A stretch of 64,000 nt of DNA from Acidimicrobiales bacterium (GTDB lineage: Bacteria; Actinomycetota; Acidimicrobiia; Acidimicrobiales; SZUA-35), in NCBI GenBank assembly GCA_020629155.1, contig JAHDDW010000003.1, positions 62,001 through 126,000 of the forward strand. Direction: 5' to 3'. This document shows positions 17,240-25,977 of the stretch, piece by piece. Every line of letters starts with the position of its first letter. Positions within the stretch are counted from its first letter, which is position 1. Both the position numbers and the translations under genes were made by a program. Below the pieces are notes generated by a model. It ran no database searches and was not told the DNA's origin. It saw only the letters and a list, made by a program, of their open reading frames with translations.

Positions 17240-17975
17240 ATGACAAATGCCACGAGAACGACCAAGCGAATGGCTTTAATCACAGGCGGAACAAGAGTAT
17301 CGGGGCGGCATGTGCCGCACGTTTACAAGCCGATGGTTTGTCATGCTATATCACAGGGACAGCGCATAAACGCCCAGACCATATAGACCTGGCATGTGGG
17401 TATCTTCAAGCTGATTTACGAAATGAACAAGACACACAGAATCTTGCCTCTTGGATCCGAGAGAACAAGCCTGACATACTCATTAACAACGCTGGAATTA
17501 ATATCAAAGGGGCAACGGTTCCATTTAGCCTCAACGATTACGATGCAGTACACGCCGTAAATTTGAAAGCCCCTTTGTGCTAATACAAAGTGCTATCGAA
17601 GCTATGCAACAGCGTCACTGGGGACGAATCGTAAATATTACGTCATTATGGGGTGTCACAGGCAATACACAGAATGCAGCCTATTGCTCAACAAAGTTCG
17701 GGTTAGACGGACTTACAGCATCTATTGCTGCAGAGGTTGCTGGCACTGGCATTCTTATCAATTCGATAGCTCCAGGCTACATTCACACAGCAAGCTACGA
17801 TGACTATTTTTCAGAAGCTGAACTTGCCGAGATCAGCAAGAAAATTCCGATGGGTCGTCTCGGAAAGCCAGAAGAAATAGCAGCACTTCTTTCGTGGCTT
17901 GTCAGCGAAGAAAACAGTTATATGACTGGCCAAAACATTCTGGTTGACGGTGGCCTCACCAGAACAGCTTGCTAG
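17240..17975 (+). pseudogene. Short-chain dehydrogenase/reductase (FabG-like), two frameshifts
   Basis: MALITGGTR|(G)IGAACAARLQADGLSCYITGT needs +1 nt near 17297; ...INNAGIN...AVNLKAP(F)|VLIQSAIEAMQQ...ITSLWGVTG...YCSTKFGLDGLT...INSIAPGYI...GQNILVDGG needs +1 nt near 17574-17577. Confidence 0.8.
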
Positions 17976-18016: not shown

Positions 18017-19588
18017 ATGAAGAAACTTGGTGTAGGCATAACTTCTTTTAGAGAACTTATAGAGCAGAACTATGTCTATGTCGATAAAACATCTTTTATC
18101 GACCGTGTAACTTCTGAAGGCAAATATTACTTTCTATCCAGGCCAAGACGTTTTGGGAAATCACTCTTGGTAGATACCATCAAAGAACTGTTTGAAGGAT
18201 CGCAAGACCTTTTCCAAAGATGCCACATTTATGACCACTGGGACTGGAACACTCGCTACCCAGTGATTCATATCAACTTCGCCAAGGGCGGCATACGCAG
18301 CACAGAAGACCTTGCCACTCATATCACCCACATGCTTGATCAAAACGCTCGAACTCTTGGCGTTGAACGTAGCGAATCACCCAGTCTAGGAATTGTTTTT
18401 GCTGAACTAATTCGGATGGCCAAAGAAAAACACGGCCAAAACGTAGTTGTGCTCGTCGATGAATATGACAAACCCTTGCTTGATAACGTCACCAACCATA
18501 CGGTTGCACAAGAAATTCGAGATCAGCTTCGTGATTTCTATTCAGTGCTTAAAGAGCAAGAAAAAAACTTGCGGTTTGCTTTCCTGACAGGCATTTCACA
18601 ATTTTCCAAGGTTTCTCTTTTTAGCGGACTGAATAATCTAGAAGACATCTCACTAGATCCTAACTTTGGGGCAATCTGCGGTTATACCCAACAAGAACTT
18701 GAAACCCATTTTACTGACAGGCTTGCACCTGTCAATAGAGAAGAATTTAAATCTTGGTATAACGGCTATAGCTGGCTTGGAGACAGCGTCTACAACCCAT
18801 ATGGGACGCTCCTTTTCTTCAAAAAGAATTTGCTTTATAGGTCATATTGGTTCGAGACAAGCACACCGCAGTTTCTTATCCAGTTGCTTCAAAAAAAATA
18901 TTACCACACGCCAGATTTTTCTGATCTTAGCGTTGGATACGACCAACTTGTGCGGTTCGATATAGAAAATCTCGATCTGACAACGCTACTTTTCCAAGCA
19001 GGCTACCTGACAATCAAACAAGTCGACATTTCTTTCAACCAAGAAACATTCCATCTCGGGTTCCCTAACCAGGAAGTCCGCAGCAATTTTAGCAAACTCA
19101 TTTTCAAAGACTATTTAACAAAACAGGTTTCTCCTAATTCGGCTTCACTTCTTACAGCATTGCAACAAGGAGATATTGCAGCATTAGAACAGCAAATTCG
19201 TTCTCTTTTCGCTAGTATCGCCCACGATAACTATCGCAATAATACCATTGCGCACTATGAAGGCTACTATGCAGCTGTTCTGCATGCCTATTTCATGCTG
19301 CTACCGATACAGGCTATCACCGAAGATGCAACGAATAAAGGCAAGATAGATGTGGCACTTCAGCTCACAAATGAAGACGGTCAGCACCTTGTCTATATAA
19401 TCGAGTTTAAGGTCGTTAAGAAAACAACCGAACACCCCTCAAATACCGCTTTACAACAGATCGAAGAAAAAGGGTATGCAGAAAAATATCACGCAAACGC
19501 CGACATAGTTACCCTTATTGGCATTGAATTTTGTGCAGAGCAGCGAAATGTCTGCCACTTTGCTCATAGAACGTATACTTCAAAATAA
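18017..19588 (+). CDS. AAA-ATPase-like domain + PD-(D/E)XK nuclease (DUF1703-type) protein
   Basis: KLGVGITSFRELIEQNYVYVDKTSFIDRV...FLSRPRRFGKSLLVDTIKELFEGS, VVVLVDEYDKPLLD, GKIDVALQLTNEDGQHLVYIIEFKVV; full length. Confidence 0.9.
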   Translation: MKKLGVGITSFRELIEQNYVYVDKTSFIDRVTSEGKYYFLSRPRRFGKSLLVDTIKELFEGSQDLFQRCHIYDHWDWNTRYPVIHINFAKGGIRSTEDLATHITHMLDQNARTLGVERSESPSLGIVFAELIRMAKEKHGQNVVVLVDEYDKPLLDNVTNHTVAQEIRDQLRDFYSVLKEQEKNLRFAFLTGISQFSKVSLFSGLNNLEDISLDPNFGAICGYTQQELETHFTDRLAPVNREEFKSWYNGYSWLGDSVYNPYGTLLFFKKNLLYRSYWFETSTPQFLIQLLQKKYYHTPDFSDLSVGYDQLVRFDIENLDLTTLLFQAGYLTIKQVDISFNQETFHLGFPNQEVRSNFSKLIFKDYLTKQVSPNSASLLTALQQGDIAALEQQIRSLFASIAHDNYRNNTIAHYEGYYAAVLHAYFMLLPIQAITEDATNKGKIDVALQLTNEDGQHLVYIIEFKVVKKTTEHPSNTALQQIEEKGYAEKYHANADIVTLIGIEFCAEQRNVCHFAHRTYTSK

Positions 19589-19713: not shown

Positions 19714-20934
19714 TTAAGGCTTTGCTACTGTGGCCAGTAAGGAGACAAGACGGTCAACTTCTTCGGTTGTGTTGTAATGCATCAGCCCTATACGCAACAC
19801 GCCTTCGCTTCTTTTTAACCCGAGGGCATCAACAAGACGGACGGCATACATGTGGCCGTTCCATGCAAAAACGCCCTCAGATCCCAAGAACTTTGCTAAC
19901 GTTTCGGGCGTTTGGTCATGCGAAGTCAAAGCAAAGGTTGGCGCTCGATTAGCAGTTGTTTGCATCCCATGTAAAGAAAAACCATCTAGCTGTGCAAGAT
20001 GTTCGAGAAAGTGTTCACTGAGACCCAGCTCCGACTCAGCGATCTTGGCGAAACTAACATCATAGTCTTCATTCTTTTTACCTCCGACAGACAGCAGGTA
20101 CTCAAGAGCAGCTCCTAACCCTGCCATCGCTGCAAAGTTTTGTGTTCCTGTTTCCCAGCAGTGTGGCGAAGTTTTTGGAGCAGGTTCGATTCGGTAAGGA
20201 ACCAATTTGTCCATCTCGTCAGCTTTCCCATACAATATGCCGATATGAGGACCAAAAAATTTGTAGGCAGAGCAAACCAGAAAATCGCATGACAACTTTT
20301 GTGTGTCTATCCGATGATGTGGAGCATGATGCGTTGCGTCTGCATAAACTAACGCACCTGCTTCGTGAGCTTTCTCACAAATTGAAGCGATAGCAACGTG
20401 GCTGCCAATCAAATTAGAGGAAAGTGTAACTGCCACCAATCTGGTTCGATTATTCAAAAGTGGGATCAGGTCATCAGCTGCAACCGTTCCCTTGTCCGGG
20501 TTATAGGGAATCGACATAACTTCAACTCCCCGTTCTTTTGCTGCCAACACCCAAGGGGAGATATTCGCCTCATGATCTATCTCAGATACGATAATACGAT
20601 CACCAGCCGTCCACGTTTGCGCCAGAGAACGACTAAAAGCGAAGGTCAAGCTAGTCATATTCTGCCCGAAAGAAACTTCAGCCGACGAGCAATTCAAAAA
20701 TCGAGCGACTTTGTCCCGAGTCTCAGCTACTAAACGAATAGTTTCCTGACCAGTCGCAAAGTTAGGGCCAAGATTAGCGTTACTTTCAAGTATGTAGCGT
20801 GACATAGCATCTGCCACAGAACGAGGGACCTGAGATCCGCCAGGGCCATCGAAATAAATGACCTGTTTCCCATTGAGCTGTCGATCAAGCGCAGGGAAAC
20901 ATGCTCTAATTGCTGAAAGATTCACTGTTGTCAT
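19714..20934 (-). CDS. PLP-dependent class V aminotransferase fold, cysteine-desulfurase-like protein
   Basis: YFDGPGGSQVP, DATHHAPHHRID, VCSAYKFFGPHIGILYG (PLP-Lys region), GVFAWNGHMYAVRL where SufS/IscS would carry its Cys loop. Confidence 0.88.
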   Translation of the reverse strand: MTTVNLSAIRACFPALDRQLNGKQVIYFDGPGGSQVPRSVADAMSRYILESNANLGPNFATGQETIRLVAETRDKVARFLNCSSAEVSFGQNMTSLTFAFSRSLAQTWTAGDRIIVSEIDHEANISPWVLAAKERGVEVMSIPYNPDKGTVAADDLIPLLNNRTRLVAVTLSSNLIGSHVAIASICEKAHEAGALVYADATHHAPHHRIDTQKLSCDFLVCSAYKFFGPHIGILYGKADEMDKLVPYRIEPAPKTSPHCWETGTQNFAAMAGLGAALEYLLSVGGKKNEDYDVSFAKIAESELGLSEHFLEHLAQLDGFSLHGMQTTANRAPTFALTSHDQTPETLAKFLGSEGVFAWNGHMYAVRLVDALGLKRSEGVLRIGLMHYNTTEEVDRLVSLLATVAKP

Positions 20935-21591
20935 CTACTCTTTGCGACGGTGTTCGCCTGCGGTTAAAACAAAAATATCCCAGTAGACGACTTTTTTGCC
21001 AGTCTTGGCTGTCATAGGCAAAGCGTGATGCATAACCTTTTCATCATCGATGAAGAGAAAATGCCCTGGTGGCAATATTTCAGAATAGATAGGGCCATCA
21101 GTCTTGTTCAGATGCACCGACGTTTCGCCTCCTTCAACTCCATCACGATCTACAACAAAAACCCCGAGATAATGGCACCCATCTCGATGCACGCCTTCAG
21201 GCGACGCGTTTCCGTCAAACCCACCACCTGCACGTATCCTAATTTGGTGAACTTCAATCGGAGTATTCGCCATGTTCACATCTGTTACGCGAACAAAACA
21301 ACCAAGAATATTCTGGAAACTTGGGTGGTTGTAGACGCTAGCGTCAATCTCATCAAATTCGCGATGAATATCGGGACGCCCTTCATATTTCGCAGTTTGA
21401 TAAAACAGCTTATGAGGAAGTTTCACAGGGCTTTGAGGTGTGCCCGCGAACCAGGAAAACCGACGGCTTCGGGTTCCACTCCGAAGATAAACATCTGTTG
21501 GCAAACGATCAAACGACTCTGCTAGCGCTTGCCTGTCAATTTCAGGGGCGTCTACAACAGCATACCCTTGCTCTTTTAACTCGTTGTTCAT
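20935..21591 (-). CDS. 2OG-Fe(II) dioxygenase family protein
   Basis: HQIRIRAGGGFDGNASPEGVHRDGCHYLGVFVVDR (HxD) and distal His FIDDEKVMHHALPM; similar to the isoleucine-dioxygenase-type 2OG-Fe dioxygenase family. Confidence 0.8.
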   Translation of the reverse strand: MNNELKEQGYAVVDAPEIDRQALAESFDRLPTDVYLRSGTRSRRFSWFAGTPQSPVKLPHKLFYQTAKYEGRPDIHREFDEIDASVYNHPSFQNILGCFVRVTDVNMANTPIEVHQIRIRAGGGFDGNASPEGVHRDGCHYLGVFVVDRDGVEGGETSVHLNKTDGPIYSEILPPGHFLFIDDEKVMHHALPMTAKTGKKVVYWDIFVLTAGEHRRKE

Positions 21592-21639: not shown

Positions 21640-23598
21640 TTAATGCTTATGGGCCTCAGGTTTGCAATAGGCAGCTAGCGCTCCACCTTGTGCAGAGCTA
21701 TACGGTTTCGTCTCAGACTGTGAACACATCTGGTCATAAATATCTTTCACTGGGATCCTAGCTTTCGGACTGTTATAACCAGTCACAAAGTCGTTTCGTA
21801 AACGCAGCGCACGAACATCTGAGTCAGGGTCACCTTCAGGATCGGCAAGCAGACCCGAGCCACATTCGGCGTTAAGAACATTACTGCAATTATCTACCCA
21901 TTCCTTATTTATCTGCTTATTCCATGCACCGAACCAGTCAGCATGCGCTGTCGAGCCACCAGGTTGCGTTTGGACTCGACTATCGGCGTCCACGTCAGAA
22001 GATAGGAACCATTTGCTTGTATCATCGCCTGGTTTGATGTCATAAAAAATGTGGGTTACAAGCGCAGGCAGCAACACTGGGTGGCTTGAAGGGCAAACGC
22101 TTGAATGCCAATAGTTAAGCGGCGCAGTAAAGTTTTTATCTCTGTTAGCTTCCCATTCGTCGACCGTATCTTCATTGCCGTTCCAGCAGTAATCATAAAA
22201 AATCATATACTCTAGCGCACCTGGCTGATTGCTAACCGAGCTAGCACATTTCGGAATTGTTGCCGATGGTTGTGTTTTTGCGCCGTTATATATGGTGTTG
22301 CAACGAAACGTCGATAGCCCAAGATTGTCTTGCTTATTGTTTGTCGTATCGCCAATCAACTGCAGATTCTCTGGATATGGCTGCACTTTGCCTATTCCAG
22401 CAGGTTTTTCTGTTTTATAATAGAAAAGCACTTTGCTTGGAACCACAACATTTTCTTTGCCGTCAAACATAGCAGGCACCCAATACGCCGTGCGATTCAG
22501 CTCGCCGCCGTTACAAGTAGACCCGCCAGAGTTCAGTAACGTGTCGTAGGTACTAAAAGCGTTTGTATCTGTGTTGCCAAGAAACATATGCAGATGCGCT
22601 GCCTCAGGCTGGCCAGGGAAAACAATCGGGTCGTCATAGCTGAAATGGCTCACTTCACAATTTGCGCGAAATGTTCCTGCACCGTTGTTTGGAAAGTAGC
22701 CGCCTGGAAACCATTCAGGTCCGTTATAAAAGCCTGACCCTACAATGTAATCTCGCGCTGATCCATAAAGGTCAGCTTTATTGTAAAGCTCCGATGAAGG
22801 TGTATCTCGATATCGGCTGTTGTCCTCAGCATGGTTTCTTACGGTCGACGCTTTGATGAGAGCAACACTTGCCGCATAGTTTTGGGCGGCTTTTGTTACA
22901 CTGGTTTCATGATTTTGTTCAGTGTGGCCAGTGTGGTCGCTGCTGTCGCTATCTTTGTGGTCGTTACCCTTATCTGCGCTTTCATGCGTGTTTTTATGAT
23001 CGGTGTTGTTAGTTGCCCCACTGTTGTCTGTATTAGTATGTGTACCGTTATGTTTATTGCTTTCATCGTGGTTTGCATCGTCCGCTTTCTCATGACTTGT
23101 GGGGTGATCATGATCAGAAGAATGTGTGCTTGGTTCGCTACTCGCAGGAGCCTGCGTGTTAGTAGTATTTTTGCTGCTTGATGATGTTTTGTTCCATAAA
23201 TCGTCATCATGACCTGCTGATTCATTATGCGTGTCAGTCGCAGCAGCTTCAGAGGTATTCGATCCAGGTTTTTTTAACGCTCTAGCTGCAGCTTGTTGCT
23301 GTTCAACAGGCTTTTGCAGAAGAGTGCTAGCTGTAGGTTTTTCTGCTTCATTATCGGAAGCTAGTGTTTCGCTTGGCTTGTCAGTTTCTTTGTCATCTAT
23401 CTCTACAGCCGCTAGTTTGTCTGGCAATAACGTACTTTCAGGCTCTTCTTCACTGCGATACGATGTGTCCTCTACAGAATCGGTTTGGACACTTTCGCTC
23501 GCCGAGAAGAAGCTACTTCCCCATAGCTGGGAGGAAATCCATCCTGAAAAACCCAAAAAGATTACTACAATAAATTTTCTTCCGCCAAGTTTTCTCAC
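21640..23598 (-). CDS. DUF1996-type secreted/anchored protein with a long His/Asp/Ser/Thr-rich linker
   Basis: N-terminal TM; FRANCEVSHFSYDDPIVFPGQPEAAHLHMFLGNTDTNAFST and ELNRTAYWVPAMFDGK are DUF1996 hallmarks; low-complexity HDDD/DHDHPTSHEKADDANHDESNKHNGTHTNTDNSG linker. Confidence 0.85.
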   Translation of the reverse strand: MRKLGGRKFIVVIFLGFSGWISSQLWGSSFFSASESVQTDSVEDTSYRSEEEPESTLLPDKLAAVEIDDKETDKPSETLASDNEAEKPTASTLLQKPVEQQQAAARALKKPGSNTSEAAATDTHNESAGHDDDLWNKTSSSSKNTTNTQAPASSEPSTHSSDHDHPTSHEKADDANHDESNKHNGTHTNTDNSGATNNTDHKNTHESADKGNDHKDSDSSDHTGHTEQNHETSVTKAAQNYAASVALIKASTVRNHAEDNSRYRDTPSSELYNKADLYGSARDYIVGSGFYNGPEWFPGGYFPNNGAGTFRANCEVSHFSYDDPIVFPGQPEAAHLHMFLGNTDTNAFSTYDTLLNSGGSTCNGGELNRTAYWVPAMFDGKENVVVPSKVLFYYKTEKPAGIGKVQPYPENLQLIGDTTNNKQDNLGLSTFRCNTIYNGAKTQPSATIPKCASSVSNQPGALEYMIFYDYCWNGNEDTVDEWEANRDKNFTAPLNYWHSSVCPSSHPVLLPALVTHIFYDIKPGDDTSKWFLSSDVDADSRVQTQPGGSTAHADWFGAWNKQINKEWVDNCSNVLNAECGSGLLADPEGDPDSDVRALRLRNDFVTGYNSPKARIPVKDIYDQMCSQSETKPYSSAQGGALAAYCKPEAHKH

Positions 23599-23690: not shown

Positions 23691-24422
23691 TCAACTATAC
23701 TGTGCGTAACCAGAATTTTCGAGCTCAAGAGCTAGCTCAGGACCGCCAGAGGCCACAATCGAACCGCCACTCAAAACATGCACTTTATCTGCTTTAAGTT
23801 CTGCAAGCAGGCGATTATAGTGCGTAATAACAAGCACACCCAAACCTGATTCTTGCGTTGCCTGCTCGACCCGTTCTGACACCATACGCAACGCATCGAT
23901 ATCTAGACCAGAATCTAATTCATCCAAAATAGCATACTTTGGTTTAATAACGCCAAGTTGCACTGTTTCGTTGCGTTTCATCTCGCCACCGCTTAAATCG
24001 ACATTTAATGGACGGTCAAGAAAATGCTCAGCAAATCCTATTCTTTTTGCCTCATCACGCAACGCATCACTGAGCTCGCCGTTTTCATAGCCTAAACCAG
24101 CAGCTTGCAATGCTGCATGTAGCGACACACCAGGCACTTCAGTTGGGTATTGCATAGCGAGGAAAAGACCAGCGCGAGCACGTTGCCATGTTGGCAAAGC
24201 GAGAAGGTCTTGCCCATCCAACGTAACTGCTCCAGCGGTAACGTCATAGCCTGCTTTGCCAAACAGCGCATTTGACAGTGTTGACTTTCCAGCTCCGTTG
24301 GGGCCCATTATCGCATGCACTTCACCAGGGTTAATAGTAAGGTTCACATCGCTAAGGATCTGTTTGCCTTCTACCGCAACACTAAGACTTACTATTTGCA
24401 AAGATTTTTCACTCATCAACAA
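23691..24422 (-). CDS. sufC: Fe-S cluster assembly ATPase SufC
   Basis: IMGPNGAGKSTLSNALFG, YPTEVPGVSLHAALQAA, LSGGEMKRNETVQLGVIKPKYAILDELDSGLDIDALR. Confidence 0.96.
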   Translation of the reverse strand: MLMSEKSLQIVSLSVAVEGKQILSDVNLTINPGEVHAIMGPNGAGKSTLSNALFGKAGYDVTAGAVTLDGQDLLALPTWQRARAGLFLAMQYPTEVPGVSLHAALQAAGLGYENGELSDALRDEAKRIGFAEHFLDRPLNVDLSGGEMKRNETVQLGVIKPKYAILDELDSGLDIDALRMVSERVEQATQESGLGVLVITHYNRLLAELKADKVHVLSGGSIVASGGPELALELENSGYAQYS

Positions 24423-24726
24423 ACACTTTCACTACACCGTCTTGCACTTTTGTTTCATAGGTTTTTACAGCTTTTGTTGCAGGAAAACACTGTGGTTCGC
24501 CTGTAAGCAACGAAAACGCTGAACCATGCTTCCAACATTCAAGCGTGAGCTCTTTGGTATCAAGCTCGCCTTCAGAGAGTGAATAATCAGCGTGTGAACA
24601 TCTATCGTCAACAATATGCACCTGATCATCTTGTAGGCGAACCACTGCGAGGCGAAGACCTTCTATATCGAAACGTTTTGCAGTAGCAACTTCTAAATCT
24701 TCTAGCAAACAAACATCATATTCCAT
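24409..24726 (-). CDS. Rieske [2Fe-2S] ferredoxin-like protein
   Basis: DRCSHADYSLSEG and LECWKHGSAFSLLTGEPQCFPA (CxH...CxxH) Rieske ligands. Confidence 0.9.
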   Translation of the reverse strand: MEYDVCLLEDLEVATAKRFDIEGLRLAVVRLQDDQVHIVDDRCSHADYSLSEGELDTKELTLECWKHGSAFSLLTGEPQCFPATKAVKTYETKVQDGVVKVFVDE

Positions 24727-24732
24727 TAGAAG

Positions 24733-25977
24733 TTACCCTTCAGCCGCTTCGCGACGACGAGCCGCTAATTTCTGATCAACAAACGACGCAATCGCGCCAT
24801 GCGCTTGCGGAACAGGGAGTTTTTGCAGAACCTCATCATAAAAACCTGCAACAATCAGCTGATCGGCTTCCAACGGCGGCACGCCTCTAGATTCAAGGTA
24901 AAAACGTTGCGCATCGTCAACTGGGTTTACTGTCGACGCGTGACTGCAATGAACCTCATTATTTTCAATCTCTAGGTTAGGAACCGACCATGTCCAAGCA
25001 TCATCGCTAAGTTTAATATTCCTATTTGTCTGGAAAGCATTCGACCCAGCACCTTCAGGGTGAATATGAATCAACCCGGTATAGATAGAACCAGCTGTGT
25101 CATCGACAACACCTTTGAAAAGCATGTTGCTTTGTGTGTCACGGTCGTCATGGTGTTGGTAGGTTCGAAAATCGTGCACTTGGTGACGATCGCCGTAATA
25201 GGCAGCGTTAAGGTCACCTGTCGCTCCCCTGCCAGCAAGGCGAATATCGCTTCTCGTTCTGCTATATGAGCCGCCGAAAGACGCAAGACCAACATTGAGG
25301 TTCGCTTGGCTAGCGACAGTGCCAAAGATGCGTGCCAGCTGGATATGCTCTGGCCCATTATTCTGAACTGCAAGATATTTCACAACAGCAGCTTCAGCAA
25401 CATCAAACGCAGTTACGTTGACGCTCAAAGCAGCGCTAACAGAAGAGGATTGTCGCTCGACAATAGACACATGAGAAGCCTCTCTAGCATCTACTTTGAT
25501 AGAAGGGAACGAAGCAACAGCATCGCCATTGTGATAATTGTTTATCACAATAGGTTCTTCGACTGCTAAACCTTTTGCGATAGTTATCGTTAGCGTCTGC
25601 GGCGTATACGCCTGATGCGCATAATCAAAGATATCTTCAGCCCAGCTATCTTGACTGCGACCTGCTATTTCTTTAGAAACACTGAGACCTTTGGCTTCCC
25701 ACGCAGCGTCAATAGCTATTTCTAGAACCCAGCCGTTAACAATAGTTATCGTGGCAGCTGGATTAGCAACCAGCTCGTCATTCTTACCTGCCATCACTTT
25801 TGGCATACTGGTCTGAGGTTGATAGCTCGCTGTTAAAACATCGCGCAGGGTGCTATAACGCCACTGTTCATCTTCAGTCGAAGGTAACGATAGCCCAGCC
25901 ATCGAAGCTACTGATTGTTCGCGTATAGGATGAGCATCAAGATCGGCTAAACTCGCCGTAGAAAAAATTTCTTTCAC
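24733..25977 (-). CDS. sufD: Fe-S cluster assembly protein SufD
   Basis: SufD/SufB family: SFGGSYSRTRSDIRLAGRGATGDLNAAYYGDRHQVHDFRTYQHHDD, HCSHASTVNPVDDAQRFYLESRGV. Confidence 0.92.
   Translation of the reverse strand: MKEIFSTASLADLDAHPIREQSVASMAGLSLPSTEDEQWRYSTLRDVLTASYQPQTSMPKVMAGKNDELVANPAATITIVNGWVLEIAIDAAWEAKGLSVSKEIAGRSQDSWAEDIFDYAHQAYTPQTLTITIAKGLAVEEPIVINNYHNGDAVASFPSIKVDAREASHVSIVERQSSSVSAALSVNVTAFDVAEAAVVKYLAVQNNGPEHIQLARIFGTVASQANLNVGLASFGGSYSRTRSDIRLAGRGATGDLNAAYYGDRHQVHDFRTYQHHDDRDTQSNMLFKGVVDDTAGSIYTGLIHIHPEGAGSNAFQTNRNIKLSDDAWTWSVPNLEIENNEVHCSHASTVNPVDDAQRFYLESRGVPPLEADQLIVAGFYDEVLQKLPVPQAHGAIASFVDQKLAARRREAAEG

Follow-up and report, generated by a model that had tools for sequence, protein, structure and literature searches.

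Class V PLP-dependent enzymes include a branch in which a bond to Cbeta is broken by way of an alanine enamine, the leaving group being sulfur, sulfinate or carbon. SufS (C-S bond), kynureninase (C-C bond) and UstD are members of this kind. The TIGR01976 family, a 'hypothetical equivalog' with no assigned function, carries the database label 'cysteine desulfurase-like protein'.

The closest described two-step system is fungal. The P450 Fgm1 adds a hydroxyl group, and the PLP enzyme Fgm3 cuts 4(R)-hydroxy-L-arginine at the Cbeta-Cgamma bond to give alanine and a second product (PMC10967133), a cleavage that has been termed retro-aldol (PMC10367076). Characterised Fe(II)/2-oxoglutarate dioxygenases of the PF10014 family act at the same carbon. 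IDO and its relatives place a hydroxyl group on C4 of isoleucine, leucine or threonine (PMC3684760), and BelL and its homologues take the C4 hydrogen from 6-nitronorleucine (PMC10764440). Here we describe a bacterial gene pair that joins a PF10014 dioxygenase to a TIGR01976 enzyme. The window is a stretch of 64,000 nucleotides from a contig of an Acidimicrobiales bacterium, and all coordinates below refer to it unless another locus is named.

Organization of the locus

Both open reading frames lie on the minus strand. ORF calls place the dioxygenase first (21591..20935) and the PLP enzyme second (20934..19714). The first gene encodes a PF10014 (BsmA/IDO family) Fe(II)/2-oxoglutarate dioxygenase of 218 aa, assigned from the ORF, the family profile and an AF2 model. 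The second encodes a PLP-dependent fold-type I (aminotransferase class V) enzyme of 406 aa, TIGR01976 / VC1184 by profile and AF2 model and a predicted Cbeta-Cgamma lyase. At the junction (20932..20937, minus strand) TAG is followed directly by ATG with zero bases between, the sequence reading ...GAG TAG ATG ACA..., so that the abutment reported in a preliminary description of this DNA is borne out by both the ORF calls and the junction itself. The intergenic gap is -11 to +24 bp in many relatives of the pair.

Several neighbours were noted. A co-directional gene 48 bp upstream of the dioxygenase (21640-23598) encodes a 652 aa protein with a DUF1996 domain and a long Ser/Thr/His/Asp-rich stretch, and a DUF1996 gene also lies upstream of the pair in a congener (locus L058, 1466-2926). 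SufD, Rieske and SufC genes (23691-25977) are found further upstream. A second SufC is encoded with SufS and SufU on a different contig (G000:C30, L001), so that the suf system is split and SufC is present as two paralogues. On the other side, and convergent with the pair, is a gene (18017-19588) for an AAA-ATPase-like protein with a C-terminal PDDEXK_9 nuclease domain (PF09820, PF08011). Beyond it the ORF at 17577-17975 aligns with an SDR (PF13561) solely over the C-terminal half, positions 111-236, and is probably a truncated or frameshifted dehydrogenase gene. No aldehyde dehydrogenase gene was seen next to the window pair; the five matches in the genome all lie elsewhere, and a dedicated aldehyde dehydrogenase adjoining the pair was rejected.

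The PLP enzyme lacks the desulfurase cysteine

The window PLP enzyme passed the TIGR01976 model with 440.2 bits (cut-off 352.35) and also matched PF00266, while its score against the SufS model, 238.4 bits, fell below the cut-off of 475.1. All 21 paired PLP enzymes matched TIGR01976. The AF2 model had a pLDDT of 90.9. Active site positions were assigned by alignment with Bacillus subtilis SufS. H121 (20572..20574, minus strand), which is expected to stack on PLP, occupies the SufS H121/H123 position and is present in 27/27 paired enzymes. The Schiff-base lysine K225 lies in Y224-K225-F-F-G-P-H230 (20245..20265, minus strand), where Y224, K225, P229 and H230 are each conserved in 27/27. Within SAYKFFGPH (residues 222-230) Tyr precedes the lysine and GPH follows it, whereas SufS has His before the lysine and GPT after. 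R381 (19792..19794, minus strand) is at the SufS R376/R379 position and is expected to bind the substrate carboxylate; 25 of the 26 paired enzymes with a residue there have Arg, as do 12/12 sequences of a further alignment, the genome's own SufS included.

The catalytic loop is different. F356-A-W-N-G-H-M-Y-A364 (19843..19869, minus strand) stands in place of the SufS catalytic-Cys loop, with residues 355-368 reading GVFAWNGHMYAVRL where SufS has RxGHHCA, and Y363 falls at the column of B. subtilis C361. Two of the 27 paired enzymes are truncated before this column. Tyr was found in 25/25 of those that reach it and Cys in none, and the loop consensus is mostly W-x-G-[HN]-[FM]-Y-A. Loss of the cysteine and retention of the PLP- and carboxylate-binding residues are directly established. 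The preliminary description had quoted both PLP motifs as they stand and had judged persulfide chemistry unlikely for want of the cysteine, a view strengthened by its absence from the paired relatives.

The suf genes upstream of the pair can do without the window PLP enzyme, since another contig of the genome carries a SufC-SufS-SufU operon whose SufS is a normal one (RPGHHCA). Most PLP homologues found in related genomes are RxGHHCA SufS proteins; two distant relatives carry WSG[ND]YYA.

To identify the closest characterised relatives, family profiles were compared with all solved structures. Fgm3 ranked first with a profile of eight PLP partners (287.9 bits; best SufS 272.6) and with one of 21 (276.4 bits; best SufS 268.6). 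The margin is narrow, at 8 to 15 bits, and SufS comes first when the single sequence is searched or when folds are compared with Foldseek. Fgm3 was not among the 50 listed Foldseek matches of the PLP enzyme in a fold library extending to April 2026. The PLP partners and Fgm3 have in common Tyr before the lysine, GPH, W then GH[FM], and HYNT, none of which is shared with SufS, and this signature agrees with the profile ranking. No substrate-binding residue was matched between the window enzyme and Fgm3.

The dioxygenase belongs to a family of amino acid hydroxylases

The dioxygenase passed PF10014 with 152.4 bits (cut-off 23.1, E 1.5e-44), in support of the resemblance to free-amino-acid hydroxylases noted in the preliminary description. 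The AF2 model is a confident jelly roll (pLDDT 92), and it carries the HxD...H triad by which PF10014 membership is recognised. The HxD iron ligands are H135 and D137 (HRD, 21181..21189, minus strand; HRDG is 135-138), and the distal ligand is H188, the first His of 'MHHA' (21028..21030, minus strand). All three are invariant in a 28-sequence alignment. The motif HRDG...HHA given in the preliminary description is present, but conservation within HHA is confined to the first His. Foldseek placed the model nearest to the solved folds of HrmJ, BelL, an unnamed 2OG enzyme, a Methylibium BsmA homologue and IDO, with TM 0.73-0.85 for HrmJ, BelL and IDO.

Because the IDO relatives hydroxylate C4 and the BelL group abstracts a C4 hydrogen, our best guess is that the window dioxygenase attacks C4 of a free amino acid. 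One residue counts against the C4-hydroxylase/lyase reading. In the same alignment the window protein has Trp where relatives have Arg, 3-4 residues before the invariant D205-F-V-T strand, and this Arg likely corresponds to R227 of IDO.

Conservation and spread of the pair

In a second species of the genus (L007/L058) the two genes follow in the same order, with a 3-base gap and 57% and 73% identity. The pair is also present in Salinivibrio and Gloeothece (annotated plasmids) and in Photobacterium (ORF calls). A scan of named genomes with the dioxygenase alignment yielded 80 loci, and in 20/80 the dioxygenase is immediately followed on its own strand by a TIGR01976 gene (14 Cyanobacteriota, 4 Verrucomicrobiota, 1 Acidimicrobiales and 1 Oceanospirillales). 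Two Alphaproteobacteria MAGs have the PLP gene next to the dioxygenase in convergent orientation, and in Methylocaldum 2.5 kb separate the two. With a few thousand genes and few TIGR01976 genes per genome, chance would be expected to produce far fewer than one such neighbour in 80. Since the 80 loci share descent, the argument rests on phylum spread and not on a p value. The order dioxygenase then PLP enzyme spans four phyla, being found in Acidimicrobiales, Verrucomicrobiota, Cyanobacteriota and Gammaproteobacteria. Co-occurrence across genomes had been proposed as a test of the pairing, and the pair, whose conservation is directly established, extends far beyond its source genome.

Pairing is scattered across all deep branches of the dioxygenase tree. 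Unpaired dioxygenases fall mainly into two clades, a large one of filamentous cyanobacteria and one of Oceanospirillaceae; the dioxygenases on Aeromonas and Piscirickettsia plasmids are unpaired as well. Seventeen unpaired genomes were searched for the PLP enzyme. A close homologue was encoded elsewhere in two and a more distant one in a third, while 14/17 gave matches at SufS level only, suggesting that the partner is usually absent rather than relocated. In genomes that lack it the hydroxylated product can have another fate.

Protein distances of the dioxygenase and the PLP enzyme are correlated over 27 pairs (r = 0.887; maximum 0.51 in 2000 shuffles), a figure to which common ancestry alone contributes. 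The window pair, the congener pair and two Verrucomicrobia cluster together in both trees, which suggests that the pair was transferred as a unit. Movement within a larger cluster was rejected, as the flanks hold no common third gene. A phage or defence origin was also rejected. No relative of the dioxygenase was found among viral contigs, and matches of the PLP enzyme in a phage collection have 24-31% identity, with SufS/CsdA as the annotation where there is one.

Genomic context of paired and unpaired genes

Tdh- and Kbl-like genes, of threonine-to-glycine catabolism, adjoin the pair in five cyanobacterial loci, four downstream and the fifth divergent, and an Lrp/AsnC regulator follows it in one Oceanospirillales locus. 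Apart from these no third gene common to paired loci was found in the flanks examined. Because the remaining flanks vary between genomes, the two enzymes appear self-sufficient.

Unpaired genes have their own surroundings. On a Kovacikia minuta plasmid (L055, 5917-10355) Tdh-like, Kbl and tryptophanase-family genes come after a dioxygenase that falls within the paired clade. The TIGR01976 partner is absent from this plasmid and may have been replaced. The gene after each of four unpaired Oceanospirillaceae dioxygenases (L078, L098, L105, L133) encodes an Lrp/AsnC-type regulator, which would fit control in response to amino acids.

Rhizobial TIGR01976 genes occur in amino-acid catabolic clusters (L057, L164, L165, L167, L170). 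At four annotated loci TIGR01976 genes with no dioxygenase adjoin aldehyde dehydrogenases, M20 amidohydrolases and ABC transporters for amino acids or other compounds; three of the four have a common arrangement and probably do not count as independent. This context fits an enzyme that would free an aldehyde from an imported amino acid. L057 differs, having SDR, agmatinase-family and creatininase genes beside TIGR01976 in an arrangement reminiscent of guanidino-compound breakdown. A cupin gene upstream in the rhizobial clusters was considered as an alternative hydroxylase and rejected, as it encodes an HTH-cupin regulator. Aldehyde dehydrogenase genes were not seen at the other unpaired TIGR01976 loci (Hymenobacter, Streptomyces, Shinella).

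Discussion

By analogy with Fgm1/Fgm3, we propose that the module carries out C4-hydroxylation followed by a PLP-dependent retro-aldol reaction that yields alanine, or a homologue, and a carbonyl compound. We put the probability of this reading at roughly one half. The narrow preference for Fgm3 over SufS, the dioxygenases that occur with no PLP partner nearby and the lack of an aldehyde dehydrogenase gene close to the window pair all weigh against it. The broader reading, in which the PLP enzyme is a lyase acting on a hydroxylated amino acid, is likely. As is usual for its family, the dioxygenase would use Fe(II), 2-oxoglutarate and O2 to place a hydroxyl on C4 (gamma) of a free L-amino acid. 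The TIGR01976 enzyme would then take the 4-hydroxy amino acid as a PLP aldimine on K225 with its carboxylate on R381. Conversion of the aldimine to a ketimine and deprotonation of the gamma-OH by a general base, for which Y224 and H121 are candidates, would allow the retro-aldol step to cut Cbeta-Cgamma. An aldehyde or ketone would leave, and protonation of the remaining alanine enamine would give L-alanine, or 2-aminobutyrate where the substrate has a methyl group on Cbeta. Candidate substrates are leucine, which would yield acetone and alanine, isoleucine (acetaldehyde and 2-aminobutyrate) and arginine (guanidinoacetaldehyde and alanine).

The preliminary description had envisaged hydroxylation followed by PLP-dependent lyase or elimination chemistry. 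That frame holds, but the evidence favours an Fgm3-type retro-aldol scission between Cbeta and Cgamma rather than elimination. The same hydroxylation might be followed by dehydration, elimination, transamination or cyclisation with the Cbeta-Cgamma bond left intact, a sequence we consider unlikely. The PLP fold is versatile, gamma-lyases are matched weakly by all 21 paired enzymes, and the model of GntC, a gamma-hydroxy-arginine cyclodehydratase, is matched weakly by 18/21 (best E 5e-9). Weak matches of this sort are, however, common to many fold-type I enzymes, and the nearest characterised relatives, SufS, Fgm3 and UstD, all break a Cbeta bond through an alanine enamine.

The pair might instead work in the synthetic direction, with an alanine enamine joined to an aldehyde and the resulting gamma-hydroxy amino acid modified by the dioxygenase for a specialised metabolite. 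UstD, a homologue (178.8 bits), forms gamma-hydroxy amino acids in a decarboxylative aldol reaction (PMC11976203), and PF10014 has biosynthetic members such as HrmJ and BelL. But UstD scores about 100 bits below Fgm3 with the family profile, and no conserved NRPS, ligase, exporter or other biosynthetic gene was seen, the flanks being unrelated housekeeping genes. We regard synthesis as rather improbable.

Little credence is given to the idea that the genes are adjacent only for regulation or transfer and serve separate pathways. Each gene is also found without the other, but adjacency holds in four phyla, including a convergent arrangement, the trees match, and there is no universal third gene. 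The least credible alternative, a sulfur enzyme that works without the essential Cys (desulfurase, selenocysteine lyase or cysteine sulfinate desulfinase) and serves the SufD, Rieske and SufC genes just upstream, agrees with annotation and fold but was rejected, since Cys is missing from the catalytic column of every paired enzyme, the SufS model gives 238 bits against a cut-off of 475, a bona fide SufS is encoded on another contig, and suf genes were not found beside the paired homologues examined elsewhere.

If the retro-aldol reading is correct, the paired branch of the TIGR01976 'cysteine desulfurase-like' family would acquire its first assigned function; the conserved hydroxylase partner gives this family, labelled as a sulfur enzyme, a concrete and testable reaction. 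Cyanobacteria as well as marine and soil bacteria would then have a new way of cutting amino-acid side chains, one that may be a natural source of small volatile carbonyls, and bacteria would supply lyases or aldolases for gamma-hydroxy amino acids to complement the few fungal ones in use. More tentatively, the pair may represent a widespread, horizontally transferred bacterial route by which a common free amino acid is oxidatively cleaved between Cbeta and Cgamma; leucine, for instance, would be broken down to acetone and alanine.

No description or test of the dioxygenase/PLP pair was found in the literature searched, and a search by title or abstract, with subscription papers outside its scope, returned no functional study of TIGR01976 or VC1184. 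Comparison with known systems places the module as follows. The window dioxygenase shares family, fold and iron ligands with IDO, the leucine and threonine 4-hydroxylases and HilB, although its identity to IDO in a structure alignment is only ~16-18%. Known PF10014 operons pair the dioxygenase with dehydrogenases/reductases, a second dioxygenase, ligases or exporters, and not with a TIGR01976 PLP enzyme (PMC3684760). The HrmJ/BelL cyclopropanases are nearest in solved fold and in sequence, but they act on 6-nitronorleucine supplied by a dedicated diiron enzyme, and no such gene adjoins the pair.

The PLP enzyme shares with SufS-type desulfurases the fold (TM 0.88), the PLP lysine, the stacking His and the carboxylate Arg. 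It differs in having W-N-G-H-M-Y-A for the catalytic-Cys loop and Tyr for the His that precedes the lysine. UstD, a decarboxylative aldolase, is likewise a 'cysteine desulfurase-like' PLP enzyme that uses an alanine enamine and gamma-hydroxy amino acids, but it makes the bond instead of cutting it, and its match to the family profile is weaker. Fgm1/Fgm3 of Fusarium graminearum, from the fusaoctaxin pathway, follow the same logic, gamma-hydroxylation and then a PLP lyase of the same structural branch, and the window enzyme resembles Fgm3 in its Tyr-Lys...GPH motif, its lack of Cys and its W-GH loop. The gamma-hydroxylating partner expected beside an Fgm3-like lyase may be the conserved adjacent PF10014 dioxygenase, for which C4 regiochemistry is predicted. 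Here the hydroxylase is a 2OG dioxygenase rather than a P450, and the module is a bacterial two-gene one with no amidohydrolase or NRPS partner. Apparently undescribed in the literature searched, it appears to follow the Fgm1/Fgm3 logic in a bacterial version built on a dioxygenase.
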